Below are positions 43,738 to 64,000 of a stretch of DNA of 64,000 nucleotides, piece by piece; within the stretch, counting starts at the first letter, position 1, and every line of letters starts with the position of its first letter. The translations under genes were made by a program, and so were the position numbers. The notes below the pieces were generated by a model. The model had not been told where the DNA came from. It saw nothing but the letters and a program-made list of their open reading frames with translations, and ran no database searches. The DNA comes from Martelella alba (GTDB taxonomy: Bacteria > Pseudomonadota > Alphaproteobacteria > Rhizobiales > Rhizobiaceae): positions 62,001 to 126,000 of the forward strand of contig NZ_VHLG01000011.1 of assembly GCF_006516955.1 (NCBI RefSeq). The letters are read 5' to 3'.

Positions 43738-46700
43738 CTACCAGCGCAGTTTCAGCCCGACATTGGCACCGAGACCATAGCTGTCACCGAAATCGGCCAG
43801 GGCAGTTGACGCTCTCACTTCGGCGTAAAGCGCATAGTCGATATTCTCGGTTTTCCAGCCATAGGATGTACCGAAGCCGATTTCTCCGGTCCAGCGGTTC
43901 GATTTGCTGACACTGTCGTCACCGGCAAGAACAACTTCGCTGTCACCGAGAAACTCGTAATAGAGATTGGCGATACCGTAGACATTGGTATTGCGGGCAA
44001 AACCGCTTTCATCCAGCCAGACATTGTTCTTTTCAAGCGCAAGCCCCATGCGGGCGAGCAGGCTTTCGGCATTCTTGAAATCCACACTGTCCTGATAAGC
44101 GCCGGTGAAATCATCCGCCCCGACATTGGTGTAGGATAGCTGGCCCTGCGGGGTCAGCGCGAAACCGCTGTCGAGATCAAACTGGCGTCCGGCCTCCAGC
44201 GAAAGCGCGACGGCCGTTGCATCGGTCCCATTCACATGGCGCGACAGATCGTCGGTCTTGAGATTGCTCGTATAGAAGGTGGTTTCGGTCTGGGCATCGG
44301 CATAAAAACCATTGGTCCCGTACCAGGTGAGGTTGGCACCGATGCCATAACCTGATGGCAGCATGTCACCGGCACCGTATTGCGACCCCACACGGGCCGT
44401 CGCCAGGCGGTATTGCCCGGTCACGCCAGCACGCAGAACACCTTCGGCACCATCATAAAACAGACCGTCCACCCCCAGCTGGGTTTCGAATTGCGAAAGA
44501 TCATAGTCATAGCCCGTTGCACTGGAGGCTGGATTGACATGGCTGCGCCCGCCAACCATCCGCAGCCAGATGCCATCGGATGCCGGAAGTGTTCCCGGAT
44601 CGACAGCGCCAGCCATCTCATAGCCCTGTCGCTGACCGGTACGCTGACGCAGGGTCGGCAGCCGTGACATTTCCATGAGAACAGGCATATAGGCTTCATA
44701 GACCGGCAGGTAAGGTTGAAGGGAAGGCTGCTCATCACCCGTCTGTTCGGGGACAAGATACAGCCCCGGATCCAGACCATTGCCCGGATCACTGGACAGT
44801 TGATAGGAATATTTGCCCGACGCGATCTCACCCTTATATCCAAGTGAGAAATGGCTGCTGTCGACTTCTGAATTATCGGCATGATTGACCAGAAGAACAG
44901 GAGCCGGCACTGCCGGACTGCCAAGGTCGGCAACCTCGATTTTGGTATTGCCGTCAATACCGCCGCCAATGGTTGTGAGATCACCCTGGCTTGCGCCGAA
45001 ATCGACATCCACGGCAAGCCTGCCGTCATTGGCCGAATAGTTGCCGCCAATCGCCAACCGGCCGTCGGCAGCACCATCCTGCATCGACAGGGTACCGCTA
45101 TTGGTAACATCACCGTAAATTCTGGTCCTGCCGGAGCCGATGGAAAAGAAGGTGCTGCCCGCATCGGCTATGTTGAGATTGCCGAAAAGATCGAAATCCC
45201 CCGCCTGTCCGACCCGAACGGTGGAATTGTTCTTAAGTGTGAAGTCGCCAAAGCCGTTCGGATTGCCGCCGGAATAGCCATCAAGGTCCAGCTCGTTATC
45301 GGTAAAGGTCAGATCGGCATTATCGGCGGTAAACGTCTCCCAGTTGATGATATTGGCACCGACAAGACCGTCATTTACCGTCGAGACGAAAGCGATATCA
45401 TCGACATCACTGACACTCATGAGGCGCATCGCATCGCTTTGCTGACCGCCCTCACCGTCCTCGCCGCCATCGAAGATCACATCGGAGAAACCATCGACAT
45501 TGCCAACATAGATCTCGGCCAGATCATTGCCGCCCTGGCCGTAAAAATTGCCCTGAAGCAGTCCGCCAGTCCAGTAAAAGCTGTCAGTATCCTGATATTG
45601 CTCGCCCGGGCCTTGCGGATCATAGTCACCATAAATATTGCCCGAGACCACACCGTTGCGCAGGTTGAACCGGGATTTACCCGCGCCGAGCATGCTGTCA
45701 CCTTTGATGGTGCCTGAGTTGGTGACGGAAACATAGCTGTCGGCGCGCTCCGCACCGTTCCAGATGGCATAATGGCGGCTGGATTTGCTGCCGTCGATCG
45801 TGCCGTATGTTCCGATTTCAATTCCACCGTAAAGTGACGTCGACCCCTCCGGCGTTTGCCTGAAGCCGATTGCGGCCTGCGCCTCACCGGTTGCGCTTAC
45901 CTCACCGCTGAGAACCGAGATCTGCGTTATCCCGGTCATATCGGGCCGGTCATCCGTGTTTGCGTAACCTGTCAGACCAAGGGAACCCGCACCTGACACG
46001 GAGACAACGGGATTGCCCTGCCCGTCACGATTGCCCACGGTGATGCTGTCAACTCCGGCGCTATCGTTCGAGACAAAGCTGATCCCGTCAGCCGCCGCCC
46101 CTGAGGTGGCGATGAAGCCATCCTGAAAAGCAATATCCACACGGCCGCCAGCAGTCTGTCCATCATGGAGGACATGAATGCCATCGGCGCCATCGCCGCT
46201 CGTGGCGATTGATCCGCCATCCATCGCGACCTTGACGTTGGCATGACCAACAGCACTCACGTCAATGCCACGACTTTGCGCACCATGCGTGCGGATATCG
46301 GCGACGCCGCCCTGATCATTTTTGCCAATAACCAGATTGACAGGACCGCCAGTGCTGGCAAGGTCGATACCGCTGGACTGATCCCCCTCGGTCTCAATCG
46401 CCGCCGCAGCAAGCTGCGCATCAATTCCGGTATAGCCGCTGGCATCCGCCTTGATACCGGCAGAACGTTCCCCCGACGTACGTATATCGACCTGCGGAGC
46501 CTCGATCTTGATAAGGCCGCCGCCGTTGTGATGGACGTAGACACCAGCGGCATCATCCCCCTGCGTGGCGACGACCTCGCCCTTTGCTGCATCGTTTTGC
46601 AGATAGATTTCATTGGGTCCGGAATTACCGGTCTCGGCATAGATGCCATTTGAGCCATTTCCGGTCGTGGTGATCGTCCCGCCCCGGTAGGAGATGCTCG

Positions 46701-48348
46701 CAGTGCCAAGCGGGCTCGCCGCCGAAACCTTGACCTGCAAGCCATTGGCGTGATCGCCATGCGTGGTGACCGAACCGCCCGACATCACGATTTGCGCCGC
46801 CCCCATGCTGCCTTCCGTTATGGCGGATATGCCGTCCGCTCCGTCACCACCCGTCACGATGACACCGTCGCGCATCAGGACACGGGCAAGCCCGTCCCCC
46901 TTGGTCAGCGCGAAAAGCCCGTCCGAATTGGTGCCAGAGGTTGTGAAGGCGCGGTCCCCATCCTTGTCATCCATGGTGATGATCGCATCGCCGCTGCCTA
47001 GATTATAGGCCGACGCGGCATAGGCACCACCGCCATCAGTGGTTTGCGTATCCCCATAGGTCGAAACCCGTCCACCCGTTATCTGGACAATGGCATCGCC
47101 CGCATCGCTGGCGTCTTCAACCGAAGCCCTTAACCCGGTTGAATTATCACCCAGAGTGGTGACACTGCCGCCCTGAAGTTCAATCCAGGCATTTGCCTGG
47201 CCTTTTGCCTGAGCATAGAGCGCTGCACTTGAACTGCCCTTGGTCGCCACGGAAACAGAGGAAATCGTGGCACCTGCGGAATCATCCCCCATGATGATGA
47301 TGACATCGCCCTTGCCAGAGGCCGTCGCAAATGCGCCATTCGAGCCGTCCCCCTGGGTTTCGATCCGGCCGCGGGAAAAATCGATCCGGGAAACCGCTCC
47401 CACCTCACTTTGCTGCGACGTGCGCGAGACCAGGCCATTGCTGTTGTCGCCCTCGGTCTGGACAACCCCATCACTCATGAAGACAAGCGCGGAGCCACTT
47501 CCGAGAGCATCAGCGACCAGTGCATTGCCCTGCAGCGAACCAGAATCCGAACGATCACCTTTCGACATGATCGTCCCACTATTCATATGCACTTCAGCGG
47601 AAGAGGCGCCATAGGCCTTAGCCATGCCGATAGTCGCATCCGGACCGAACGCGCTGAGCCTGCTGTTCCCGCCAATGACGATGGCAGCCTTGTCGCCAAC
47701 GGCCGAACTCTCCGACGTAACCGCCTGCAACAGGGTCTGACCGGCGATCGGCGCACTGTCCCCCAGATTGATCGTTGAACTCGAAACGGTGATCGTTCGC
47801 GATCCTGGTCCCATATTTTCCGTGCCTAACGTGTAGGCTGTCATATATTCGGATCCATTCAGAGACTGGTCCGCACCCGAGATGACCAAAGTCAGATCCC
47901 CGTCATAAGTGTCCGGAGCATTAAGCATTATCGGCGCTCCAGCCGAACTGTCATCTGAGAGCGAAACCGGCGTAACCGCATTATCGACCATTAAGTTAGC
48001 ATGTAATGACAAATATGATGCATTTGAGTCATTTTTATTGACGGTATGGCCGATTGTTTCAACTGACGTAATCAGATCGGGCATGGTGTACACCGCCCGG
48101 CCACCACTGCGCCGCTCCGAGTGAAATCCGGCCTCCCCTTTCCCATCAGAACCGCGACAGTCGACGACATCCCGCGGGCTGCACTCGCCCGCCGCCGCCT
48201 CATCAATCGTGCCCAGGCCGACCGCCGCCATTGTCAGTGCAGCTGCAGAAACAGACCCTCTCAGCATTGCAGCCGTCAGCGGCTTCCAACGCGACTGATT
48301 CGCTCTTTTTGATACTCGCATGTCGCGCGTTCTGCCGTCATTGGACAT
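43738..48348 (-). CDS. Type V autotransporter with glycine-rich repeat passenger
   Basis: This 1536-residue outer-membrane or surface protein has an extended N-region, then signal peptide LTAAMLRGSVSAAALTMAAV (cleavage near AAAG). The passenger (about 60-1180) is a degenerate beta-helix; between about 215 and 780 a unit of 20-30 residues recurs around G-D/N-x-S/A-x-G-L/I (TTLGDNSTGLRASV, TTGNGSNGIYAETG, STSGDGADGI-like). A linker precedes the C-terminal 12-stranded barrel at about 1255-1536, which ends YGLGANVGLKLRW with the expected terminal aromatic. The start is MSNDGRTRDM with GGAG six nt upstream. It lies beside the T3SS and is probably an adhesin; this is inferred. Confidence 0.9.
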   Translation of the reverse strand: MSNDGRTRDMRVSKRANQSRWKPLTAAMLRGSVSAAALTMAAVGLGTIDEAAAGECSPRDVVDCRGSDGKGEAGFHSERRSGGRAVYTMPDLITSVETIGHTVNKNDSNASYLSLHANLMVDNAVTPVSLSDDSSAGAPIMLNAPDTYDGDLTLVISGADQSLNGSEYMTAYTLGTENMGPGSRTITVSSSTINLGDSAPIAGQTLLQAVTSESSAVGDKAAIVIGGNSRLSAFGPDATIGMAKAYGASSAEVHMNSGTIMSKGDRSDSGSLQGNALVADALGSGSALVFMSDGVVQTEGDNSNGLVSRTSQQSEVGAVSRIDFSRGRIETQGDGSNGAFATASGKGDVIIIMGDDSAGATISSVSVATKGSSSAALYAQAKGQANAWIELQGGSVTTLGDNSTGLRASVEDASDAGDAIVQITGGRVSTYGDTQTTDGGGAYAASAYNLGSGDAIITMDDKDGDRAFTTSGTNSDGLFALTKGDGLARVLMRDGVIVTGGDGADGISAITEGSMGAAQIVMSGGSVTTHGDHANGLQVKVSAASPLGTASISYRGGTITTTGNGSNGIYAETGNSGPNEIYLQNDAAKGEVVATQGDDAAGVYVHHNGGGLIKIEAPQVDIRTSGERSAGIKADASGYTGIDAQLAAAAIETEGDQSSGIDLASTGGPVNLVIGKNDQGGVADIRTHGAQSRGIDVSAVGHANVKVAMDGGSIATSGDGADGIHVLHDGQTAGGRVDIAFQDGFIATSGAAADGISFVSNDSAGVDSITVGNRDGQGNPVVSVSGAGSLGLTGYANTDDRPDMTGITQISVLSGEVSATGEAQAAIGFRQTPEGSTSLYGGIEIGTYGTIDGSKSSRHYAIWNGAERADSYVSVTNSGTIKGDSMLGAGKSRFNLRNGVVSGNIYGDYDPQGPGEQYQDTDSFYWTGGLLQGNFYGQGGNDLAEIYVGNVDGFSDVIFDGGEDGEGGQQSDAMRLMSVSDVDDIAFVSTVNDGLVGANIINWETFTADNADLTFTDNELDLDGYSGGNPNGFGDFTLKNNSTVRVGQAGDFDLFGNLNIADAGSTFFSIGSGRTRIYGDVTNSGTLSMQDGAADGRLAIGGNYSANDGRLAVDVDFGASQGDLTTIGGGIDGNTKIEVADLGSPAVPAPVLLVNHADNSEVDSSHFSLGYKGEIASGKYSYQLSSDPGNGLDPGLYLVPEQTGDEQPSLQPYLPVYEAYMPVLMEMSRLPTLRQRTGQRQGYEMAGAVDPGTLPASDGIWLRMVGGRSHVNPASSATGYDYDLSQFETQLGVDGLFYDGAEGVLRAGVTGQYRLATARVGSQYGAGDMLPSGYGIGANLTWYGTNGFYADAQTETTFYTSNLKTDDLSRHVNGTDATAVALSLEAGRQFDLDSGFALTPQGQLSYTNVGADDFTGAYQDSVDFKNAESLLARMGLALEKNNVWLDESGFARNTNVYGIANLYYEFLGDSEVVLAGDDSVSKSNRWTGEIGFGTSYGWKTENIDYALYAEVRASTALADFGDSYGLGANVGLKLRW

Positions 48349-49571
48349 AAATTTCTCCAAGTTGGGGATTTATTTTGACGGCCTACGGGTAAGTGAAACC
48401 CTATTTTTGTTCAATTTCATTTTACTTATTTCAAAATTCAGGAAAATTTTATTCGTATTCAGCGAGCAATGCCCAAGTTACAAAATACTACCCACGGTTT
48501 TACACCGCGACACAACTTGTCACCCTCCTGACTTGCATCACGCTGAGCGCGCTTGTTCCATGCATGGCGTGCACTGCGAGCAAACCCGATCGCCCGGCAC
48601 CTACAACCATAGAGAAATGCCCGACACGTCACGTTGAAATGAGAGCATGTAAGCTGACTGCAGCAGCACATCTGCACAGCACGGGAACTGCGGCAGTATC
48701 CTGCCCGCATACAAATGATCGTCGGCGCAAGCGTCGCCCCATCATTTCAAAAAAACTGAATTCAGTATCGCAATTTCAGCAATTAGACGAATTCTATCGT
48801 CACCATTCACAAACGGAGATAAGACGATGCGTGACCACGAGAACGGCGAAAGCAAGAGCATCCCCCGCGCCCGGAACAGCGCCATCAACGACAATATCGA
48901 GACGACGGATGCACCGGATCGGCACCCGAATATGATCGGCCTGCCACGACCTCGGCTCTATCGAGATGCAGCCCACCAATGCGTCATGTTCAGCATAGCC
49001 CCGGCGAGAAAGCCACCGCATCGAAGGCGCAGAGACCACCATTTCAACGACAGCCAACACCCGGGACCAGACTGGCAGAAAAGATATGCGGGGAGAAGGG
49101 AAACACGCAAAAACAAATACTTACCGATAGGCCCGCTGCGACGATGAGTTTATTTCGCTCCGACTGGCCTGTATCTTCGCCCCTACGGAGGAGCCGCTCG
49201 TTTCGGGCGCGCACCGCAGAGGCGACCAAGCAATCAGATGCGCCTTTGCCGCTGCACATCCAGAAGCCGACGGTAAGGCCGGGCGCGCTACCCTCTCCTT
49301 CGCCCTTGCAATCAGTCAGACCTGACCGAGGGGCCGAACCACAAGGCTCGCCCATGCAGTTCGACAGATATGCCTGTTACAAAATAATAAGACGACTGGG
49401 CAAGCGGCAGCTTTTCGATCATTTCGTGATGTATTGCACACTTTTTAGTTCAATTTCGATCACGATTTCGCCCATTATTTCTGTAAAAGCTGCCGATGTC
49501 CAATATGAAAGGGCAATTTCTTCAGGTCTTTTGCCGATTATATCGCGCATATAACAAGTCGGAGGATACCG
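48349..49571. other. 1.2-kb region without a convincing gene, upstream of the autotransporter and T3SS regulator
   Basis: The first 120 bp are AT-rich and probably hold the autotransporter promoter. One frame, 48827-49147 (106 codons, MRDHENGESKSIPRARNSAI), has a GGAG ribosome-binding site at good spacing, but its composition (Arg/Pro/His-rich) is what out-of-frame GC-rich DNA gives, and no family is recognised. It may be a decayed gene. No RNA or IS ends were seen. Confidence 0.45.
49538..49554. promoter_or_regulatory. Inverted repeat TTATAT-CGCGC-ATATAA before the LysR gene
   Basis: Perfect 6-bp arms lie 17-33 bp upstream of the LysR-type gene and just before its GGAGG site. It could be an autoregulatory site or part of a promoter. 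The function is inferred from position. Confidence 0.4.
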
Positions 49572-51076: not shown

Positions 51077-51157
51077 GCGACAAGACCATAGCGCTCCATC
51101 TGAAAGCTCCGCAGATCGCAGAGCATAGACGGGGTCACCCTGGAAGAAGTGGAAACG

Positions 51158-52297
51158 ATGATACTCGCACGCGTCAGCAAGGAAGGCCTGGAGGACCGGC
51201 TGTTCTCGATAGAGGACGGGCTGTCGAGCCTTGGCTCCGGCCTGGATTGCGACATCGTTCTGCTGGACGAAGAAGTCCAGGAACAACACCTGACTTTTCG
51301 TGTAGAGGCCAGTCTGCTTTCGCTGATGCTGGCGCCGACGGCAAACGCCTTCCTTGACCGGAACCAGGAGGGGCAGGAGCCCGTCTTTCTGAGGGCAGAA
51401 GAATGGATCAACTGCTCGGGCGAAGACAGGCTTGGCATTGACGGCATCACGATAACATTCAGCGGCATCGCGACGGCGAACGCGGCGGCGTCACCGATCT
51501 CATCGGCGCGCCGTGCACTGTCTTCAAAGTTGCTGAAATGGCTTCTTCCCACCTTTGCCGGCCTTGGCGTTGCCTGCGGCATTACCCTGCTCATCAGCTC
51601 TTCGCCGGCAAGCAATAACCCGGCCTCGCCGCCTGCTTCGCCAACACATATGAGCGCAATCGAAACCGGTTCCCCGCCTGTAGCCTCGACGCCGGTTGCG
51701 GCCCAAAACCAGCCGGGGGCACCTCAGACGCAATCGGTAACTGAAAGCGCTCTGCAGGAGACCTTGACCAATATGGGGCTGCCACCCGCCGACCTCACAG
51801 ATATCAACGGTGTATGGTCGTTCACAGTGCACGTACCCGACGAGAACGCCCGCGACAACGCCAATGAGGCTCTCGCGGCGCTGAACCTGCCGCTGGCGCC
51901 CGACATCATCCTCGACAGCGATATCGCCACCGCCGTCGAAACCTCGCTTTCGAACATGCGCAGCAAGGCGGAACTTGCCTCCGTAAATCTGGGCGTTGTC
52001 ACACTGAAAGGTCCGCAAGAGACCGACGCCCAGCAGAAGATCATCACAACGCTCGAAGGTGATGTCAGCGGCATCACCAAGGTTGTGTTCGACCACGATG
52101 ACGCCGACCAGATTGCTGCAATCAAGAAACAGATCAGCGGGCTTTGGAGCGGCGTATTTCCATATGTTCTTCTCAATGACAACACGATCATCAGACCGGG
52201 TCAGCAGATCAACGACAATGCCACTCTGGTCAGCGTCGAGGAGCATGCGCTGACCGTTGACCTGGATGGGCACAACAAAAGGATTGAGGTTGAATGA
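51158..52297 (+). CDS. sctD: T3SS inner-membrane ring protein SctD
   Basis: SctD forms the outer layer of the inner-membrane ring of the basal body. The roughly 379-residue product has an N-terminal cytoplasmic FHA-like domain (about 1-110; LFSIEDGLSSLGSGLDCDIV), a single membrane segment near 125-148 (LLPTFAGLGVACGITLLISS), a Pro/Ala-rich linker (SPASNNPASPPASPTHMSAI) and periplasmic ring-building modules to the end. ATG at 51158 with GTGGAAACG upstream is used; a GTG at 51149 is possible. The stop overlaps the next start by 4 bp. Confidence 0.85.
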   Translation: MILARVSKEGLEDRLFSIEDGLSSLGSGLDCDIVLLDEEVQEQHLTFRVEASLLSLMLAPTANAFLDRNQEGQEPVFLRAEEWINCSGEDRLGIDGITITFSGIATANAAASPISSARRALSSKLLKWLLPTFAGLGVACGITLLISSSPASNNPASPPASPTHMSAIETGSPPVASTPVAAQNQPGAPQTQSVTESALQETLTNMGLPPADLTDINGVWSFTVHVPDENARDNANEALAALNLPLAPDIILDSDIATAVETSLSNMRSKAELASVNLGVVTLKGPQETDAQQKIITTLEGDVSGITKVVFDHDDADQIAAIKKQISGLWSGVFPYVLLNDNTIIRPGQQINDNATLVSVEEHALTVDLDGHNKRIEVE

Positions 52298-53192: not shown

Positions 53193-53945
53193 ATGACAAG
53201 GCGTATTGCAGCCATCATCTTCATATTGCTGGCTCTGACATCCTGCAAGGAAGTCCTGAATACCGGGCTATCCGAGAGCGAGGCCAATCAGATCCTCAGC
53301 ACGCTGATACAATACAATGTTGAGGCGACGAAGACCCAGGCCAAGGACGGCACATCGCAGATCCTCGTCGAGCGATCACAATTTTCATACGCGGTGAAGC
53401 TACTCGACAGTTTCGGCCTGCCGAAGCAGAAGTTCACCGATGTAAGCCAGATGTTCGAGAAGGATGGCCTCGTCTCATCGCCAACAAAGGAGTGGGCCAA
53501 GCTCAATTTTGCCCAGTCGCAGGAATTGGCGTCGATGATCGCGACCATCCCCGGCGTCACCAGCGCCAAGGTGCAGATCGCCAATCCGCGCCAGACCAAC
53601 CCCTTCGAGGAAAAGCCGAAACCCAATGTGGCCGTATTGGTGCTGGCGGACAGAAACAATATCAGTCCCGATCTGGTACCGCAGATCAAGAAGCTGGTCT
53701 CCAATAGCGTCGACAATATCGACTATGACAATATCGGCGTCGTCATATCGCCGGTAACGCCACCGCCACCGCAGCAGGTAAAATTCGAAAGCATTGCCGG
53801 CATTTCCATTGCGTCCGGCTCACTCGCAGGCGCATTGCGGCTTTCTCTGCTGATCGCAGCAGGTGGAGCGCTGCTTGGTCTTGGTACCGCTGCGGCCGGC
53901 TGGTTCATCTGGAAATGGAGCCGCAAGCGCAAGGAGAACGCGTAA
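53193..53945 (+). CDS. sctJ: T3SS inner-membrane ring lipoprotein SctJ
   Basis: SctJ forms the inner-membrane ring, homologous to flagellar FliF. The 250-residue product has a lipobox LALTSC with the modified Cys18, the ring-building motif NQILSTLIQYNVEATKTQAK, then SQELASMIATIPGVTSAKVQ and PNVAVLVLADRNNISPDLVP, all typical of YscJ/PrgK. A C-terminal membrane anchor lies at about 215-243 (SLLIAAGGALLGLGTAAAGW) with a basic cytoplasmic tail KWSRKRKENA. The stop overlaps the next ATG (TAATG). Confidence 0.95.
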   Translation: MTRRIAAIIFILLALTSCKEVLNTGLSESEANQILSTLIQYNVEATKTQAKDGTSQILVERSQFSYAVKLLDSFGLPKQKFTDVSQMFEKDGLVSSPTKEWAKLNFAQSQELASMIATIPGVTSAKVQIANPRQTNPFEEKPKPNVAVLVLADRNNISPDLVPQIKKLVSNSVDNIDYDNIGVVISPVTPPPPQQVKFESIAGISIASGSLAGALRLSLLIAAGGALLGLGTAAAGWFIWKWSRKRKENA

Positions 53946-54592
53946 TGACGATCCCGGTCAAGGATAAAACGTCTGCAATCGACCCCTTGTTGAACCCTGC
54001 GGTTCTGGCCCGGGTCACCGGTGTGAAACAGCCTGAAATCCTGTCAGCCCTTGCTGCCAGCCGGTTCCTAAAAGATGCGCTGACGGACCGCATAAACAGC
54101 CAGCTGCCACCGCTGCCGGACAATATTCCTGATGCACAGGAACGCAATTACATCCTTCTGTCCTCGCTGTCGGCCGAACAATTTCATTGCGCCGCACGGC
54201 GGATCACGCTTCTGATCTGCCGCCAGGCCGTCTTGAAGACGACAGCGGGTCAGCAGCTGAAAATGCTGAGTGAATGGGTCGGTGATGCGGGCTTCCTGCG
54301 CCAGGTCGTCCGCAGCCATAGCGCCGCACCGCAGGCAATATCGCCGTTGTCCGATCTCGACAGCGATCTGCTGGACAGTTTTGACCAGCTTGTTCTCAGC
54401 TACCTGTTGGGATTGCTTCACCCGGCGCATCGGGCCCGCTTCATCATGCAGCTTGACGAGGACGACCTGCCCGACGCCGAGATGCTTGGTGACGCCGACA
54501 GGAAGCGCCTTCTGGAACTACTTCACGAGGCCTGGCCTGTGCCTGAACCGAATGCAGAACCGGAGGCAGACCATGGCACTTCCCAGAATTGA
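53945..54592 (+). CDS. sctK: T3SS sorting-platform protein SctK (by position)
   Basis: This 215-residue cytoplasmic protein lies between sctJ and sctL, where sctK is usual. SctK links the SctQ pods to the SctD ring. The sequence is poorly conserved in the family; visible features are helices SALAASRFLKDALTDRINSQ, FDQLVLSYLLGLLHPAHRAR and an acidic C-terminus. The start ATG overlaps the sctJ stop by one base (TAATG), and its end overlaps sctL by 20 bp. The assignment depends mainly on synteny. Confidence 0.6.
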   Translation: MTIPVKDKTSAIDPLLNPAVLARVTGVKQPEILSALAASRFLKDALTDRINSQLPPLPDNIPDAQERNYILLSSLSAEQFHCAARRITLLICRQAVLKTTAGQQLKMLSEWVGDAGFLRQVVRSHSAAPQAISPLSDLDSDLLDSFDQLVLSYLLGLLHPAHRARFIMQLDEDDLPDAEMLGDADRKRLLELLHEAWPVPEPNAEPEADHGTSQN

Positions 54593-55205
54593 TCTCAGGC
54601 CGCTGACGCAGCTGCCCGCCGGCCCCATCATCCCGTCGGCGATGATTGCAGCCTGCGCACAGGCGCGCGACATTGAGCAAGAGGCAAGACAGGCCGCCGA
54701 ACGGATCACACGCCAGGCGGAAGCCGATGCGGCCGAACGCCTGGTACAGAGCCGGCCTGAAGGCATCGCCGAAGGGCTGGCACTGCTGGCAGATGCCACT
54801 GCGCGGCTGCAGGACGAGCGCAAGGCGCTCTCCAGCCAGCTGCGCGCAATCCTGCAGCAATGTCTGGAACATGTACTGGGTGAAATACCGGTTGAAATGC
54901 GTGTACCGGCTATCCTGCAAAACATTCTTCAAGACTATGAGGACGAACTCGATATCCGCCTCATGGTGCATCCCGATAATCGCGCCGCCTTTGAAGCGGC
55001 CGTCAACACCTTCGTAGCGGCCCGGCCGGCCCGGACACCGATCCGCGTTACGGTCGAACCATATATGTCCGAGACCGATTGCCTCGTCTATGCCGGACCG
55101 GACGTCATCGACATCGCCGTGCCGACAATCGCACAGGAAATGATCGCGGCACTGACGCTTGATCCAGTACGCGATGACGGCAATACGACAAGGGGAGCGC
55201 AATAG
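54573..55205 (+). CDS. sctL: T3SS stator protein SctL (FliH-like)
   Basis: SctL regulates the SctN ATPase and bridges it to SctQ. The 210-residue product has an N-terminal helical, Ala/Glu/Arg-rich stalk ([40 protein letters not shown]) and a C-terminal V-ATPase E-subunit-like domain ([38 protein letters not shown]). GGAGG lies 6-7 nt before the ATG, inside the end of sctK. It ends one base before sctN. Confidence 0.85.
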
Positions 55206-55206
55206 A

Positions 55207-56532
55207 ATGGCGCAGCATCCCGACAGCACGGATCTCGACGAAACGCCCATGCGTGCCAGTCTGGCACAACCTTTCCGCAGACGCGGGCGCGTCATCAAGG
55301 TCACCGGCCCATTGCTGCGCGCGACCGGCCAGTTCGGCATTGGCGAAATCTGTTCGATTTCACGCAGCAATGGCCCACCGCTTCTGGCCGAAGTTGTCGG
55401 ATTTGATGCCAATGAAACCATCCTGACGCCCTATGGCCGCACTGCCGGCATTTCCTATTTTTCCGTCATCGAACCGGTGATGAGCGAATTCGAAGTACCC
55501 GTCAGCGAAGCGATTGTCGGCCGCGTGCTGGATTCACTCGGCCGGCCGGTCGATAACGGCCCGCCGCTGGGGCCCTGCGATCGCTACCCGGCCAATCGCC
55601 CGCCACCGGATCCAATGACGCGGCCTCCGATCGACCGTCCGTTTTATCTTGGCGTTCGCGCGCTTGATGGAGCGCTGACCTGCGGTGAAGGTCAGCGCAT
55701 GGGCATTTTCGCGGCGGCAGGCGGCGGTAAATCCACCCTTGTCTCGCAACTTGTCCGCTTTGCCCGCTATGACCGCTGCGTTGTCGCACTCATCGGCGAA
55801 CGCGGCCGCGAGGTCCGCGAATTTATCGAGCATCAGCTGGGACCGGAGGGCATGGCCCGGGCCGTGATCATCGTTGCAACATCCGACCGCCCGGCTGTCG
55901 AACAGGTCAAGGCCGCCTATACCGCCACAGCCATTGCCGAATATTTTCGTGACCAGGGCGGGCGCGTTCTTCTCATCATGGATAGCCTGACCCGTTTTGC
56001 CCGCGCCCAGCGCCAGATCGGGCTCGCTGCCGGGGAACCCCCGACACGCCGGGGTTTTCCGCCTTCGGTTTTCGAACAGCTTCCCGGCCTGGTGGAACGC
56101 GCCGGGCGAACACCCAGAGGGTCGATCACCGCACTTTATACCGTGCTGGTGGAAGGTGATGACATGAACGAGCCTGTTGCCGACGAGACGCGGTCCCTGC
56201 TCGACGGGCACATCATTCTTTCGCGCAAGCTGGCCAGTGCCGGACATTATCCGGCGATTGATGTCAGCCAGAGCGCGAGCCGTGTGCTGAACAATATTGT
56301 CAGCCCGTCCCACCTCAGCTCGATTCAGAAACTGCGCGGCCTCCTGGCCAAATATGACGAGATCGAGCTGCTGGTGAGGATCGGCGAATATGCTGCAGGG
56401 GCAGACCCGATGGCCGACGAAGCGCTGCAGCGCAAACCGGAGATCGACCGTTTCCTGCGTCAGTCGACGAAGGACTTTTCCGATTTCGATGAAACGCTGC
56501 AATTGCTCAGGGAGACCGTCGGCGATGCATAA
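55207..56532 (+). CDS. sctN: T3SS ATPase SctN
   Basis: SctN is the hexameric ATPase that unfolds and strips chaperones from substrates at the export gate. The 441-residue product has Walker [10 protein letters not shown] at about 169-177, Walker [11 protein letters not shown] with Asp259, the conserved [10 protein letters not shown] and [20 protein letters not shown] segments, and [20 protein letters not shown], all diagnostic of the FliI/YscN family. The N-terminal region ([20 protein letters not shown]) is the beta-barrel collar. The start has AGGGGAG upstream. It overlaps sctO by 8 bp. Confidence 0.97.
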
Positions 56533-57010
56533 TTTCCAACAGATCGTCATGTTGCGCAAACGCCGGACGGAGCGCGCGCGCCGCGACGAGGTTCATGCCC
56601 ACGCGGCGCTGGAGAAGAGCCGCAGCGCCCTTGCCGAAGCCCGACAGGCTGTCGATGACTTTCGCGAGGCAACGAAAAATCTCGAATGGGATCTGCTCCA
56701 GAGACTTCTGGGCCACGCCGTATCCATCAACGACCTCCTCGATATTGAAGTCCAGCTCAAAGCCGCCCAAAAAAAGGCGCAGGAACTCGTCGACAGGGTT
56801 GAGGTCTGCAAAAATACCGAACAGGAGGATGTGCAGCGGCTTGAACAGCAGCGGAGCAGGCGCATTGCCGCCTCACTGAAGCAGAACAAAAGCGAAGAAC
56901 TGGAAACAGAATTCGCGACGCAGCGCCAGCGCGAACTGACCTTCGCCGAAGACGCGCTAATGGATGAGTTCAGCGAAATAGCATTCAACCGTCAGCAACA
57001 GGGGGACTGA
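56525..57010 (+). CDS. sctO: T3SS stalk protein SctO (FliJ-like)
   Basis: SctO is a coiled-coil stalk that inserts in the SctN hexamer and contacts SctV. The 161-residue product is nearly all heptad-forming and charged ([60 protein letters not shown]), with a conserved type of start [11 protein letters not shown]. Its start lies within the end of sctN and its stop overlaps the sctQ start (TGATG). In Ysc-type systems sctP follows sctO; here sctQ follows directly. Confidence 0.8.
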
Positions 57011-58128
57011 TGTACGATCCCGCCCCCCTGCTGGCAGCATTGCCCACCATGGAACCAGCCGCCATGCTGCTGGTCAACCGCCTGGCCGCGCGGCAATGGC
57101 AGCTACCGATCCAGGGCTCGCTCGAACAGCCCATGCCGATGACAATCGCCTTCATGCCCTGGCATCGCCAGGTCGCCGGCCCCTTTACAAAAGTGACGAT
57201 AGACTGCAGCGCAGGCACGCTTGCCTTCCTCGTTGAAGCGAAATTCTGCGACCTCATCAGCGACATCACACTGCCAGGATGGCGCACGGAAAAGCGCGAC
57301 AACCTGCCGACCGACTGGCGACTTTCACTCAGCTTCGAGCACTGGCTGACAGAATTGGGATTGATAGAAACGATCAACACATTTGACATCGCCAGTCTTG
57401 ACCGCACCCCGTCCCCCACGGGAGCCGGGCCGCAGATCGCCTTTCGCCTCAATATTGGTGATCAGGTCTTCTTTGGATCGCTCGATATTGCCGCGTTCAA
57501 TCAGGAAACACTTGGCTTTCTTGATCAAATCCCGCCTGTGGCCATGCTTGGCAGTTTCACCCCGGATTTTGCCTGCAGGATCACCTTTCCGCGCGTCAGC
57601 CTAATCGATGCCGACTATCGCCGCATCCGTCCCGGCGACCTCATCCTCTTAACCCCGATGCGTGAGGAAGCCATACCCGCCTCATTGCACATCCGCGGTG
57701 TTGGCGCTGCCGCCGCGCTGATCCACGAGGATGGCATGATGACATTGAACGAAGCGCCAAGGGAGAACACGCCAATGGAAGATGAAGACGATTACGGCAC
57801 CGCTGAAGACGAATTTGCTCTGGAAGACGATCTGGAAATGGATGAGCACGACTTCGCCGATGCGCAACCGAACGGGCGGCAAGCGGGAAACACGCTTGGT
57901 GAATTGCCAATCAGGATCGACGTTCATCTCGCCGGCACCCGCATTACGCTGGAGGAACTGCAGACTCTCGGACCCGGCACCACCCTGCCACTGGCCGGAC
58001 AGCTGACAGACCCCGTGACGATCCGGGCCAATGGACGGGCAATGGCAAGCGGATATCTGGTGGTCGTGGACGGCCAGCTCGCGGTGCAGATCAAGACCTG
58101 GCCGGGCAAACCGGTGAAAGGGGAATAG
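57010..58128 (+). CDS. sctQ: T3SS cytoplasmic ring protein SctQ with acidic linker
   Basis: SctQ builds the cytoplasmic sorting platform (C-ring pods). The 372-residue product has an N-terminal domain, a first SPOA-like region at about 130-245, then a strongly acidic linker at about 253-285 (MEDEDDYGTAEDEFALEDDL) and the conserved C-terminal SPOA domain at about 298-370 (LPIRIDVHLAGTRITLEELQ, LAVQIKTWPGKPVKGE). Some SctQ genes have an internal start giving the SPOA2 fragment; ATGs just before and inside the linker (57775, 57838) could serve. It ends 1 bp before sctR. Confidence 0.87.
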   Translation: MYDPAPLLAALPTMEPAAMLLVNRLAARQWQLPIQGSLEQPMPMTIAFMPWHRQVAGPFTKVTIDCSAGTLAFLVEAKFCDLISDITLPGWRTEKRDNLPTDWRLSLSFEHWLTELGLIETINTFDIASLDRTPSPTGAGPQIAFRLNIGDQVFFGSLDIAAFNQETLGFLDQIPPVAMLGSFTPDFACRITFPRVSLIDADYRRIRPGDLILLTPMREEAIPASLHIRGVGAAAALIHEDGMMTLNEAPRENTPMEDEDDYGTAEDEFALEDDLEMDEHDFADAQPNGRQAGNTLGELPIRIDVHLAGTRITLEELQTLGPGTTLPLAGQLTDPVTIRANGRAMASGYLVVVDGQLAVQIKTWPGKPVKGE

Positions 58129-58129
58129 A

Positions 58130-58795
58130 ATGGACCAGCTGGCAGACAAGTTCGCGCCCATTCTGCCGACGGCTATCTTGGTGATGAGCCTAAGCCTTTT
58201 GCCACTGCTCGTTGTAATGGGGACATCCTTCACCAAGATCTCGATCGTTCTGGTTCTCCTGCGCAACGCGCTTGGCGTTCAAGGCGCGCCATCCGGGTTG
58301 GTTCTCAATGCCACTGCCCTGACCCTCACTGTCTTCATCATGGTGCCGGTCGCCGATTCAATCTTTTTGAACCTGCAGGCGGCCCACATACGGATCGTGG
58401 ACTGGGACAGCGCGGTCAAAGCCTATGATATCGTTTCAAAGGGATATTCCGACTATCTGCTCAAGTTCACCAATCAGAGCGAGCTTGGCTTTTTCAAGGA
58501 TGCCGCCAAGAAGATCTGGCCCGCCAGTCTGGGTGACACGATTTCCGACACCAACATGCTGATTCTGCTGCCGGCACATCTGACGTCCGAGCTGACCCGC
58601 GCATTCCAGATTGCCTTCCTGCTGTTTCTGCCCTTCGTGATCATCGACATGGTCGTCTCGAATGTGCTGCTGGCAATGGGAGCGATGATGGTCCCCCCCA
58701 TGCTCGTCTCCCTGCCGGTGAAGCTGCTGCTGTTCGTCTCCGTCAATGGCTGGACGTTGCTGCTGCACAATCTGGTGCTGAGTTACGCCCGCTGA
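58130..58795 (+). CDS. sctR: T3SS export gate protein SctR
   Basis: SctR forms, with SctS and SctT, the helical export gate in the inner membrane. The 221-residue product has the FliP/YscR signatures LVVMGTSFTKISIVLVLLRN near the N-terminus and LPFVIIDMVVSNVLLAMGAM, MVPPMLVSLPVKLLLFVSVN near the C-terminus. The four hydrophobic segments are evident. It follows sctQ by 1 bp but is separated from sctS by an unusual 189-bp gap with two hairpins. Confidence 0.96.
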   Translation: MDQLADKFAPILPTAILVMSLSLLPLLVVMGTSFTKISIVLVLLRNALGVQGAPSGLVLNATALTLTVFIMVPVADSIFLNLQAAHIRIVDWDSAVKAYDIVSKGYSDYLLKFTNQSELGFFKDAAKKIWPASLGDTISDTNMLILLPAHLTSELTRAFQIAFLLFLPFVIIDMVVSNVLLAMGAMMVPPMLVSLPVKLLLFVSVNGWTLLLHNLVLSYAR

Positions 58796-58904: not shown

Positions 58905-58984
58905 CCGATCCCTTGCCCCTCATGCCATCAGGGCGCAGGCGGCAGAAGACATCGCTATTGGACACGCAAGAGGAGGTTACGCAG

Positions 58985-59248
58985 ATGTTACCCGATGACG
59001 TCATCACAGCAGCACAGAATGCGCTGGCACTGATTTTCTACCTGTCGATGCCGATCATCGCCGCCGCCACAGCGGTTGGCCTGATCATCGCCATTATTCA
59101 GACGCTGATTCAGGTGCAGGAGCAGACCGTGGCCTTTGCGGCCAAGCTCTCCGCGGTGGTGGTCATTTTGATGGTCGCCGGTGCCGGCATGTCGAGCGCC
59201 ATGCAGACTTATGCAAAAGCGGCGTTCAACAATATTCCGAACTTCTGA
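58985..59248 (+). CDS. sctS: T3SS export gate protein SctS
   Basis: SctS is the small FliQ-like subunit of the export gate. The 87-residue product has two membrane helices (LALIFYLSMPIIAAATAVGL and LSAVVVILMVAGAGMSS) joined by the conserved loop IIQTLIQVQEQTVAFAAK. The start is ATG (MLPDDVITAAQ) with AGGAGG upstream; the frame extends 44 codons further back into the hairpin region without conserved sequence. Eleven bases separate it from sctT. Confidence 0.95.
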   Translation: MLPDDVITAAQNALALIFYLSMPIIAAATAVGLIIAIIQTLIQVQEQTVAFAAKLSAVVVILMVAGAGMSSAMQTYAKAAFNNIPNF

Positions 59249-59259
59249 GGCACAACGCC

Positions 59260-60063
59260 ATGTCGGGCATGCAGCAATTGAATGACGCGCTGGGCAACCA
59301 GTCCACCACAATTATCTATTGCCTGGTGCTGGTCATCTGCCGGTTCTACGCCTTTTTTGCGCTTTCGCCCTTCTTCAGCAAATACGCCATGACGGGCTTT
59401 GTCCGCATGGGCGTTATAGTCTGTGTAAGCCTGCTTGTCGTTCCCTCCGCCTATGCGGAAGCCATGACCATGGACAGCAGCCTCACGATTAAATTTGCTT
59501 TCGCCTTGAAAGAACTGGCGCTGGGTTTCCTTCTCAGCATCCTGACATGGCTTCCCGTTCGCGGGCTCGAAATGGCTGGTGTGATCCTCGACACACAGCG
59601 CGGCGCCACGCAATCGCAGTCCTTTGACCCGATTTTTTCTGAGCAAACCACACCGACGTCGATATTTCTGGCTCAGGTTTTTTCGGGCTATTTCTTCGCA
59701 TATGGCGGTTTTCTGATGGTGTTGATGACCGTCTATAAAAGCTTCGAGCTCTGGCCTGTCCTGCAGCCCTTTCCGACAATCGAAATAGACCATGTTTTGC
59801 TTTACCTGCAGATGGCAGGTCATGTCTTTTTCTCTGCCGTTGTGCTCATCGCGCCGATCGCCGGTTTCATGCTGATTGCCGATATCGCCATCGCCTTTCT
59901 GGCACGCAGCGCCCAGAGCCTGAATGCACTCACGCTTGGCATGCCGGTTAAATCGGCAATCCTGTTCATCGTGCTTATGTTCTATTGTGGCATTTTATTC
60001 CCGCGCACGATGGAAACCTTCTCACAAGCCCTAGACATGATGTCAAAGGTGTTCGCGCCATGA
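59260..60063 (+). CDS. sctT: T3SS export gate protein SctT
   Basis: SctT is the FliR/YscT-like subunit of the export gate, 267 residues, with about six to eight hydrophobic segments. Recognisable family blocks are ALKELALGFLLSILTWLPVR, GVILDTQRGATQSQSFDPIF and YGGFLMVLMTVYKSFELWPV. It overlaps sctU by 4 bp (ATGA). Length and order R-S-T-U are normal. Confidence 0.94.
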   Translation: MSGMQQLNDALGNQSTTIIYCLVLVICRFYAFFALSPFFSKYAMTGFVRMGVIVCVSLLVVPSAYAEAMTMDSSLTIKFAFALKELALGFLLSILTWLPVRGLEMAGVILDTQRGATQSQSFDPIFSEQTTPTSIFLAQVFSGYFFAYGGFLMVLMTVYKSFELWPVLQPFPTIEIDHVLLYLQMAGHVFFSAVVLIAPIAGFMLIADIAIAFLARSAQSLNALTLGMPVKSAILFIVLMFYCGILFPRTMETFSQALDMMSKVFAP

Positions 60064-61112
60064 GCGGTGAAAAGACAGAACAGCCAACAGAACAGAAGCT
60101 GCGCAAACTTCGTCAGGAAGGGCAGGTTCCGTCGCGCAAGAATGTCGGTGAATTCGCACTTCTGACCTTCACGACATTTCTGATTATTGCATTGATGCCA
60201 AACATGATTGCCGCATTGATGGAGTTAACCAAAAGCGTGATCAACGATGTCGCGACCAATGCCGAACAACCCGGCATCGCAACCTATGATGCGATATTTC
60301 GGGTTATCTATCTGACACTGAGCATCTGTGGTGCAAGTGCGGCATTCACCCTCTTTGCAACACTGCTTCTGAACCGCTTCAACTTCTCCATGAAGCCACT
60401 GGAGCCGAAATTTTCCAAATTCAACCCGATGAGCAAGCTGAAATCGATCTTCGGCAAGTCCAATCTCTACACATTCATTCGCATGCTGATCTATTTTTCA
60501 GCGGTCAGCTATCTGACTTACGCGATCATTCGCTACAACATCAATAACGCTCTGCAAGCCAGCTATTGTGATCTGCAATGCGAAGCACCGCTTATGATCG
60601 CGCTGCTAAAATGGCTGATCTACGCAATTCTCGCGCTGCTGCTGGTGCTGGCAGCAATCGATTATCTCATCCAATCCAAGCTCTTTATCTCACAAAACAA
60701 GATGTCGAAGGACGATGTCAAACGGGAATACAAGGATCAGGAAGGCAATCCTGAAATCAAGGCAGAGCGCAATTCCATCGCCCGTTCGGATGCTGACGCC
60801 CCGACGATCGGTCAGGCCACACATATCGTCTACAGCGATAGTCATCTTGTCGCGGTGATCTATTATCGGAATGCCAATATGAAGCCTTATGTTGTGGCCA
60901 AATACAGCGGACCACAGGTACAGACACTTGTGCGCCAGCTCAAGCCAACCCGCCTGCAACTCTTCAATCTACCATCCGTTGCCTATGATTTTTTCCGCAT
61001 GGGGCGTCTCAGCCAATATATGCCGGCTCCGTCAATGAAAGGTATGGAGAAGATCCTGGAGATTGAGGACAAGCGCAATGCCGCTGCTGAACAGAACAGC
61101 AATCCAGGCTGA
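60060..61112 (+). CDS. sctU: T3SS substrate-specificity switch protein SctU lacking the NPTH motif
   Basis: SctU (FlhB/YscU family) closes around the export gate; its cytoplasmic domain normally self-cleaves between N and P of NPTH to permit switching from needle to effector export. The 350-residue product has the usual start SGEKTEQPTEQKLRKLRQEG, four membrane segments, and the linker MSKDDVKREYKDQEGNPEIK (215-234). At the place of NPTH it reads S259-D-S-H262 in VYSDSHLVAVIYYR, followed by the normal YVVAKYSGPQVQTLVRQL. A Q-A-T-H at 252-255 lies seven residues earlier. The reading frame is intact, so the change is real in this sequence. Confidence 0.94.
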   Translation: MSGEKTEQPTEQKLRKLRQEGQVPSRKNVGEFALLTFTTFLIIALMPNMIAALMELTKSVINDVATNAEQPGIATYDAIFRVIYLTLSICGASAAFTLFATLLLNRFNFSMKPLEPKFSKFNPMSKLKSIFGKSNLYTFIRMLIYFSAVSYLTYAIIRYNINNALQASYCDLQCEAPLMIALLKWLIYAILALLLVLAAIDYLIQSKLFISQNKMSKDDVKREYKDQEGNPEIKAERNSIARSDADAPTIGQATHIVYSDSHLVAVIYYRNANMKPYVVAKYSGPQVQTLVRQLKPTRLQLFNLPSVAYDFFRMGRLSQYMPAPSMKGMEKILEIEDKRNAAAEQNSNPG

Positions 61113-62622: not shown

Positions 62623-64000
62623 TCACCCTTCCGCTACGTCAGCGGTTATGACCCCAACCGGATAGATAACCGTTGTCGGCAACAGTTCAGAATAGGCCAA
62701 TACCGGTATAAAGACCCCCTGCTCGAACAGCAAAGTGTGAAGCGGGAAGCGAATATCCTGTTGCGTCAGGAGAACAGGATGGCGGCCACGCTGATATTCT
62801 TCGCCAACCAGTTTTCGGGTTTGCGCGGCAACATGGCTGGAAAGTTGCGGCTCCAGAACCAGGAAATTTCCTTCATTCGTACTTCGTATCCCTTCGCGCA
62901 ACAGGGATTCAATCGTGGGCGCAACAACAACGACCTGCAGCAATCCATCACTGGCATAACGCCGGGTGATAAACTCCGAGAGTTCATTGCGGACCTTCTG
63001 CAGTAGGAAGCCAGGGTCCTGGGCACGCTCCGACCATTTGAGAATGGCCTCCATAATCTTGACCCGGCTGGAGATCGGGATACGCTCTTTCAACAGCATC
63101 TGCAGAATCCGGCTCACATGATTATTCTGCATAGCCTCGCGCAGATCAGCGACCAGCGCCGAATGTTCGGTCGACATCTCGTTCAAAATCCGAAAAGTCC
63201 CCTGGAAGTCGGCAAACGCATCAAGATGCTCCGCCGTGGCGCGCCTGAGATGCATCATGAACAGTTCCAGCGCACTCCATGAGCCAATACCAAGCTCAGC
63301 GAGTTGGTCCACGTAATCGGTGGAGACCAGGACCCCTTCACGCAAACCATAAGTCTCGATGCAGGGAATACCGATAGCTTCAAGATAGCTGGAATGCGCT
63401 TTGACGAACACGCAATCGGTTCTGTATTCGGCACGCGCCACCTCTTCTCCGCGAATGAGAATGCGGTATTCGGTGCCCTCCTCCCAGTCGACTTCAAATC
63501 GCCAAAAGCCGGCAGGCACTCCATAATCTTCGCCCGTGCGCGCGCGGATACCGTCAAACAGGACCCAGAAATCATTGACATTCACCGAGCAGATGATGTT
63601 CGGCAGCACGACATTGATAATATCCGTTCGCGTCCCCCTCCGGGCAAGCTCACGCGCCTCTTCGTCGAAATGCTCCACGCGCGCGCGCCAATCATGGATC
63701 ATCAGGCCCATGGAGCGCTTCCGTCGTCGCGCTGTCACGACCACACCGGCGATCATTCCCAGACCTACCGTGCAGAAAATCACCGTCGGAAAACCGGGAA
63801 TCATCCCGAAAAGCGAGATCAAGACACCGGCAATGATGATTGTCCGCCCATTGGCAATCAGCTGTTGCACGATTTCGAAACCGAGATTGATCCCACCGGC
63901 ACTGGTCACACGGGTCACCATGGTTCCAGCAGCGACGGAAATCATCAGGGCCGGGATCTGCGCCACCAGACCGTCGCCGACAGTCAAAAGCGAATAGACA
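62623..64000 (-). CDS. sctV: T3SS export gate protein SctV (partial; N-terminus off the right edge)
   Basis: SctV (FlhA/InvA/YscV family) forms the nonameric export gate ring that receives substrates. About 459 codons are present, including the last part of the membrane domain, VGDGLVAQIPALMISVAAGT and LIANGRTIIIAGVLISLFGM, and the whole cytoplasmic domain, with GFWRFEVDWEEGTEYRILIR, ILQMLLKERIPISSRVKIME, ILKWSERAQDPGFLLQKVRN and a C-terminus with LAYSELLPTTVIYPVGVIT. It is on the strand opposite to the sctE-U operon and so is separately transcribed, with more T3SS genes expected to the right. Its stop is 79 bp from the small plus-strand gene. Confidence 0.96.
   Translation of the reverse strand, partial: VYSLLTVGDGLVAQIPALMISVAAGTMVTRVTSAGGINLGFEIVQQLIANGRTIIIAGVLISLFGMIPGFPTVIFCTVGLGMIAGVVVTARRRKRSMGLMIHDWRARVEHFDEEARELARRGTRTDIINVVLPNIICSVNVNDFWVLFDGIRARTGEDYGVPAGFWRFEVDWEEGTEYRILIRGEEVARAEYRTDCVFVKAHSSYLEAIGIPCIETYGLREGVLVSTDYVDQLAELGIGSWSALELFMMHLRRATAEHLDAFADFQGTFRILNEMSTEHSALVADLREAMQNNHVSRILQMLLKERIPISSRVKIMEAILKWSERAQDPGFLLQKVRNELSEFITRRYASDGLLQVVVVAPTIESLLREGIRSTNEGNFLVLEPQLSSHVAAQTRKLVGEEYQRGRHPVLLTQQDIRFPLHTLLFEQGVFIPVLAYSELLPTTVIYPVGVITADVAEG

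Follow-up and report, generated by a model that had tools for sequence, protein, structure and literature searches.

How does a type III secretion system (T3SS) handle its substrates when SctU, a subunit of its export gate, lacks the motif at which this protein family cleaves itself? The question is raised by a 64,000-nucleotide stretch of Martelella alba DNA (contig NZ_VHLG01000011.1, positions 62,001 to 126,000; hereafter the window), taken from a genome of 4.99 Mb in 55 contigs. In its sctU gene the codons AGC GAT AGT CAT at 60834-60845 lie in frame and encode Ser259-Asp-Ser-His262 (SDSH), at the position where related proteins read NPTH. According to reviews, cleavage at NPTH is highly conserved and substrate switching depends on it (passages of PMC10333785, PMC7064499 and PMC7911332). 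Our results show that SDSH replaces NPTH in this protein, that the ruler gene sctP appears to be missing from the same cluster, and that the window shares both features with rhizobial systems, which suggests that a branch of T3SS runs without the textbook switch.

The first-pass annotation had placed SDSH at the NPTH site of an intact frame with no other NPxH, and translation, phmmer and a MAFFT alignment of 120 SctU/FlhB rows all bear this out. YSDSH is laid on xNPTH both by phmmer, with the YscU and EscU C-domains, and by the MAFFT alignment; NPxH occurs nowhere in the window SctU, whose only NP dipeptides are those of NPMS (122), NPEI (230) and NPG (348). In the MAFFT alignment the Pro column is a gap and the turn is one residue shorter, in agreement with an earlier count of 19 residues from this His to the K of KYSG, against 20 in YscU. 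Placing the upstream Ala-Thr-His on NPTH was rejected because it requires a six-residue insertion, while the family pattern ATxxxxNPTH fits ATHIVY-SDSH. The protein is a SctU by fold, profile and gene order: Pfam Bac_export_2 (PF01312) covers residues 3-333 with 212 bits (cut-off 24.4), among NCBIfam models SctU TIGR01404 scores best, at 215 bits, under its cut-off of 358, and the gene is encoded together with sctR, sctS and sctT in the order R-S-T-U. Since it has neither NPTH nor an SctP partner, it is not to be filed as an autocleaving specificity-switch protein.

To place the replacement among relatives, we compared loci picked by similarity to the window or rhizobial SctU, and the counts given here are accordingly not frequencies. 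The gene is present in 2 of the 13 genomes searched of the window's genus. The second, the independently assembled Martelella sp. HB161492 (L033), carries a SctU that is 83% identical and keeps SDSH. The ratio of non-synonymous to synonymous substitution rates (dN/dS) between the two is 0.086 over residues 1-345 and 0.046 for residues 254-267, the latter resting on six synonymous and two non-synonymous changes; the four SDSH codons themselves differ by two synonymous changes only. With five further relatives at 37-47% identity, these two sequences form a group of seven rows, clade A, and NPTH is missing in all seven. The aligned site reads GEQY in a Leisingera plasmid (L002), SDQV in L004/L073, GEQC in L005/L074, SNEL in L006/L075 and SDDG in Tateyamaria (L034). 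The Ala-Thr-His just before the strand, four residues upstream of the lost site, is invariant in 7/7 clade A rows and absent from the 113 others. The second assembly and the clade rule out a sequencing error or a lone mutation, and the open frame and low dN/dS rule out decay, as the first-pass annotation had argued.

The further statement that proteins of this family almost always carry NPTH fails for rhizobial-type systems. A family-level search of 297 genomes showed that the next SctU group also lacks the motif, and searching plasmids with one such SctU brought up Sinorhizobium fredii NGR234 pNGR234a, Rhizobium etli Mim1, Mesorhizobium and Bradyrhizobium. The NGR234 RhcU reads ATLVYRGTAVLIGLRYV at the position where a flagellar FlhB reads ATLVIANPTHFAVALRYV, and the SctU of the second NGR234 T3SS (pNGR234b) is likewise without NPTH. 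Motif-less SctU is also found in three genomes outside the window's class (L188, L189, L190) and in single deeper alphaproteobacterial loci (L077, L087, L196). Two genomes each hold two motif-less T3SS of different types (L074 and L116 in G260; L182 and L184 in G857). Separately, we observed motif variants that keep NP, namely NPTE, NPRH, NPKH, NPSH, NPEH, NPTR and NPVH, several of them at loci that appear to be of flagellar type (L054/L123, L055/L124, L041/L118, L042/L119, L044/L121, L046/L122, L176, L178, L191).

Rows were classed as motif-bearing when they had NP at the site, which makes N and P in 69/69 of them true by definition, and the non-circular result is the tree. A SctU tree built from the residues before the motif region unites 44 rows, 38 motif-less and 6 with a truncated SctU, NGR234 included and no motif-bearing member among them, in a clade with support of 98/93; clade A is supported at 100/100, and a branch supported at only 37/46 (42% of bootstrap trees) sets all motif-less and truncated rows apart. 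A concatenated tree of SctJ, N, R, S, T and the membrane part of U from 55 injectisome loci, which is unrooted and has long branches, sets the 12 motif-bearing loci on one side of a branch with 100/99 and clade A on the motif-less side, as its own clade (100/100) beside L077. Two motif-bearing loci, L187 and L117, were dropped from it because of missing genes, and L097, L100 and L181 because each repeats the SctU tail of a retained row. As flagellar and other outgroup rows carry NPTH, one loss of the motif is the simplest reading of these sequences; two losses instead of one would also be compatible with them.

The ruler gene sctP also appears to be missing from the window cluster, as the first-pass annotation had noted. 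A listing of open reading frames (ORFs) in the interval shows none between sctO and sctQ, which adjoin, and neither PF02120 nor PF09483 has a match in the window genome, although in most motif-bearing loci these profiles also failed to detect the gene at the sctP position. PF02120 matched 37/40 genomes, mostly at a distance from the T3SS cluster, where FliK is the presumed target; neither profile had a match in the window genome or in G303, a genome assigned to the same genus. PF02120 found the sctP-position gene in 1/6 motif-bearing alphaproteobacterial loci; PF09483 matched 4/18 genomes, one over the cut-off. Because the profiles miss most sctP-position genes, gene order carries more weight here. 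Between the sctN stop and the sctR start lie 1459-1719 bases in 37/37 motif-less loci (window 1601, NGR234 1609), 1871-2503 bases in 10/10 motif-bearing loci and 1004-1016 bases in 6/6 truncated-SctU loci, so that the gap is roomy enough for sctP in 10/10 motif-bearing and 0/37 motif-less loci. Interval ORFs were listed for the 10 motif-bearing loci, all of which have an extra ORF between sctO and sctQ, and for nine motif-less loci (the window, L034, L077, L086, L087, L188, L189, L190, L196); the remaining motif-less loci were judged by distances and phmmer neighbours alone. Eight of the ORFs at the sctP position were scanned against Pfam, a set that left aside those of L083 and L195: one exceeded the cut-off (L127, HpaP), two matched PF02120 weakly (L192, L194) and five had no match. 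With so few profile matches, these ORFs are named SctP mainly by place. In concordance with these data, all Rhc subgroups are described as being without an hrpP/yscP gene, in passages of PMC3574062 that do not mention NPTH.

One lineage goes further. In six genomes (L107, L108, L110, L112, L113, L114) the SctU frame stops shortly past the helical linker, before the cleavage site, and no separate gene for the CC domain, the part that is cleaved off in other family members, was seen by eye in the three forward frames of about 1500 bases 3' of it at the six loci. In its aligned part L107 is 100% identical to Rhizobium etli CFN42 p42d, whose annotation gives the gene 798 bases (L200:10998-11795). 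A total of 39 plasmid records show at least 95% identity, and the truncated state was confirmed for CFN42, the one record checked. These clusters have neither sctO nor sctP and carry a pectate lyase gene between sctU and sctV; judged by the missing sctO and the pectate lyase gene, they are the published Rhc subgroup III. The truncated SctU gives a dN/dS of 0.20 in two comparisons of divergent members, indicating purifying selection.

We then asked what remains of the CC domain where it is present. In motif-bearing pairs CC is more conserved than the membrane part in every band of membrane identity from 25 to 75%, with identity ratios of 1.20-1.71, as opposed to 0.82-1.10 in motif-less pairs, where it is equally or less conserved; these pairs are not independent of one another. 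The Martelella pair, at higher identity, gives 1.04. Between NGR234 and four relatives, dN/dS is higher for CC (0.25-0.41) than for the membrane part (0.17-0.22) in 4/4 comparisons, whereas two motif-bearing pairs show 0.00 and 0.04 for CC against 0.16 and 0.33. These sequence comparisons, whose codon pairs are likewise not independent, show CC constraint to be relaxed, relative to the membrane part, in motif-less lineages. The predicted fold is nevertheless that of the YscU/EscU/FlhB C-domain. AlphaFold, run on four sequences, gave two moderate models (mean pLDDT 62.7 and 55.0, about 72-79 around the site) that place residues 259/260 to 261/263 in a turn between two strands. Foldseek returned 17 matches with E up to 0.001, all to C-domains of YscU, EscU, PscU, CT091 or FlhB and many to uncleavable mutants; the match to 2v5g (E 1.1e-06) comes from a moderate-quality model.

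Sites that bypass FliK are reported in FlhB at G293 and A298 (passages of PMC13060781). The equivalent residues are G and A in 69/69 motif-bearing rows; among the 38 motif-less rows G is found in 13 and A in 27, and in a further seven motif-less rows the counts are 0/7 and 0/7. As a bypass signature these positions were rejected, because YscU, which has NPTH and lies outside the row set, reads Y and V there, the same residues as the window SctU.

Based on these results, we consider it probable that the window SctU works as an uncleaved subunit of a complete-looking export gate, in a T3SS lineage without the ruler-plus-autocleavage switch. Both halves of the classical switch, the NPTH turn and the SctP ruler, are absent from this lineage, a state that probably goes back to one common ancestor; the SctU fold is retained, and the cytoplasmic CC domain would stay permanently tethered. 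We infer that no cleavage takes place and that the tethered domain stands in a state admitting early and late substrates, most simply because late export is no longer blocked; substrate order would then be set by expression timing, chaperones or substrate affinity, or be absent. A side lineage, the Rhizobium etli type, has dropped the CC domain entirely. This model draws on Salmonella flagella, in which, according to a 2026 preprint (passages of PMC13060781), the cleaved CC domain keeps export in early mode until FliK removes it, and CC deletion locks late mode; PMC3504009 likewise treats the CC domain of YscU as a block that must leave. A wider version, to which we give slightly less than an even chance, is that the whole T3SS branch (marine Martelella, roseobacter-type bacteria, nitrogen-fixing rhizobia and some members outside the class) discarded the switch once and keeps its gate in a standing unswitched mode, the R. 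etli type being a natural deletion of an inhibitory CC domain.

Several observations weigh against this proposal. As described in parts of the respective papers, effector secretion is very low with EscU N262A (PMC3189125), export of late substrates suffers when HrcU is uncleavable (PMC3040844), and uncleavable FlhB does not switch (PMC13060781, preprint; PMC7911332), staying in early mode according to the preprint. Since engineered uncleavable homologues behave badly, the motif-less lineages must differ elsewhere, and no compensating change for the missing cleavage was found at the FliK-bypass positions examined. The Salmonella CC deletion also stopped early export and needed the loss of a second inhibitor, Fluke (passages of PMC13060781). 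In Martelella the CC domain is under purifying selection (dN/dS 0.121 for residues 286-345) and so retains some role, and NGR234 can serve the window system as an analogy only. Finally, as the trees suggest one loss, the association of motif and sctP amounts to two losses coinciding once, on a single branch, no matter how many loci display them, and not to a replicated correlation.

The first-pass annotation offered three options, namely a gate that works without cleavage, a different cleavage chemistry, or a system locked to one substrate class. The classical switch would persist in another form if SctU were cut at or close to this turn by a host protease or through other chemistry, with Asp260 or the Ala-Thr-His four residues upstream as possible sites; the retained turn and domain and the signature confined to clade A would fit such a cut. 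We regard it as improbable because the four site residues vary inside clade A, as they do across the 44-row clade, and Asn and Pro are not kept as a pair; in addition, the gene for the cut's partner, sctP, is also lacking, and the domain itself is gone from one branch. That the system is a degenerate or specialised exporter, restricted to one substrate class, is the least probable of the alternatives. The window genome has no NolX-type translocator gene (PF05819, found in 3/9 genomes searched), within the genus only 2 of the 13 genomes searched carry the gene, and Salmonella mutants that lack CC or do not cleave are locked (passages of PMC13060781), but the low dN/dS and the complete export gate, ATPase, rings and secretin pair speak against this reading. 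Moreover, NGR234, with its motif-less RhcU, exports early and late classes: its supernatant contains NopA, NopB, NopC, NopX, NopL and NopP, that is pilin, translocon and effectors (passages of PMC10970691), which by analogy disfavours a locked system. With both options disfavoured, the gate working without cleavage is left, with or without another switch.

Another switch could exist if the tethered CC domain changed conformation through an unrecognised SctP-like protein. A candidate is a 199-residue protein encoded beside the two secretin genes, past the window's right end (L072:4744-5340, minus strand), which could be an unrecognised ruler, regulator or substrate. It belongs to no Pfam family; the second Martelella encodes a counterpart at 58% identity and L075 a weak match at 27% (E 3e-07), and the insensitivity of the T3S4 profile searches leaves room for such a protein. 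However, no homologue appeared in the other loci compared (E up to 1), some of which may stop short of the homologous place, and the CC constraint is lowered, not kept. We judge this switch unlikely, if less so than a cut by other means, and retain the unswitched, uncleaved gate as our preferred reading.

Compared with known systems, the window T3SS is Rhc-like on sequence features, yet forms its own clade with marine relatives. It shares the motif-less SctU with Rhc subgroups I (NGR234 pNGR234a, L068) and II (pNGR234b, L069), the absence of an sctP slot with subgroup I, the two-gene secretin with the Rhc family as described in passages of PMC3574062, and, in the unrooted concatenated tree, with subgroups I and II the side of the branch that separates motif-bearing injectisomes. 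It differs in belonging to clade A, with a SctU about 23-27% identical to rhizobial SctU, in the missing NolX gene as opposed to subgroup I, and in its Leisingera and Tateyamaria relatives. Subgroup III (R. etli CFN42 p42d) is similarly without sctP and has a SctU that is not cleavable as annotated, but this SctU has 265 residues, ends before the cleavage site without a CC domain, and no sctO lies between sctN and sctQ. With YscU, EscU, HrcU and FlhB the window SctU shares PF01312, the R-S-T-U order and the C-domain fold, in contrast to NPTH and the SctP partner gene, which it lacks. Hrp-type injectisomes of Rhizobiaceae and others (L080-L083, L101, L127, L192, L194, L195, L197) have the same core genes and, unlike the window, NPTH and the ORF between sctO and sctQ in 10/10.

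In the open-access literature searched we found no statement that a rhizobial or any natural SctU lacks NPTH or the CC domain, and no joint mention of NPTH and RhcU; prior notice elsewhere is possible. Natural systems working without cleavage would make the roles of cleavage, ruler and CC domain directly testable. NGR234 is a genetically tractable, symbiotic example with a motif-less SctU, and the truncated R. etli type is a natural counterpart of the Salmonella CC deletion reported to lock late secretion (passages of PMC13060781).

The features of the cluster are collected in Table 1. The secretin is split over two genes (L072) of 251 residues (Secretin_N) and 432 residues (Secretin). The window SctU is the sole PF01312 match in its genome, and as profile searches there found neither a second PF01312 protein nor a PF02120 protein, the genome has no recognisable flagellar FlhB or FliK.

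Table 1 Coordinates of the T3SS genes and SctU features in the window.
Feature	Coordinates	Strand	Basis
sctD-like	51149..52297	+	weak Pfam matches, below cut-off
sctJ	53193..53945	+	NCBIfam and Pfam profiles
sctL-like, HrpE family, start uncertain	54570..55205	+	Pfam profile
sctN ATPase, start uncertain	55159..56532	+	NCBIfam profile
sctO (YscO-like), directly 5' of sctQ	56525..57010	+	Pfam YscO 2.1e-07 on 56480-57007; ORF listing of interval
sctQ	57010..58128	+	NCBIfam and Pfam profiles
sctR	58130..58795	+	NCBIfam profile
sctS, start uncertain	58967..59248	+	NCBIfam profile
sctT	59260..60063	+	NCBIfam profile
sctU, motif-less export-gate subunit, 350 residues	60060..61112	+	intact ORF, ATG 60060, stop 61110-61112
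SctU residues 1-210, membrane part, used for tree	60060..60689	+	alignment with FlhB/SpaS chains; dN/dS 0.084 vs L033
SctU residues 211-250, helical linker (CN part)	60690..60809	+	alignment, phmmer, AlphaFold; dN/dS 0.029 vs L033
A253-T254-H255, clade A signature	60816..60824	+	ATH in 7/7 clade A rows, 0/113 other rows
S259-D-S-H262 in place of NPTH	60834..60845	+	translation and alignments
SctU residues 263-333, counterpart of cleaved-off CC domain	60846..61058	+	phmmer, MAFFT alignment, AlphaFold, Foldseek
sctV, 3' part	62623..63999	-	remainder and two-gene secretin beyond window (L072)

Upstream of the T3SS cluster, on the minus strand (43738-48360), lies a repetitive ORF of 1540 residues whose C-terminal region resembles, by eye, an autotransporter barrel.
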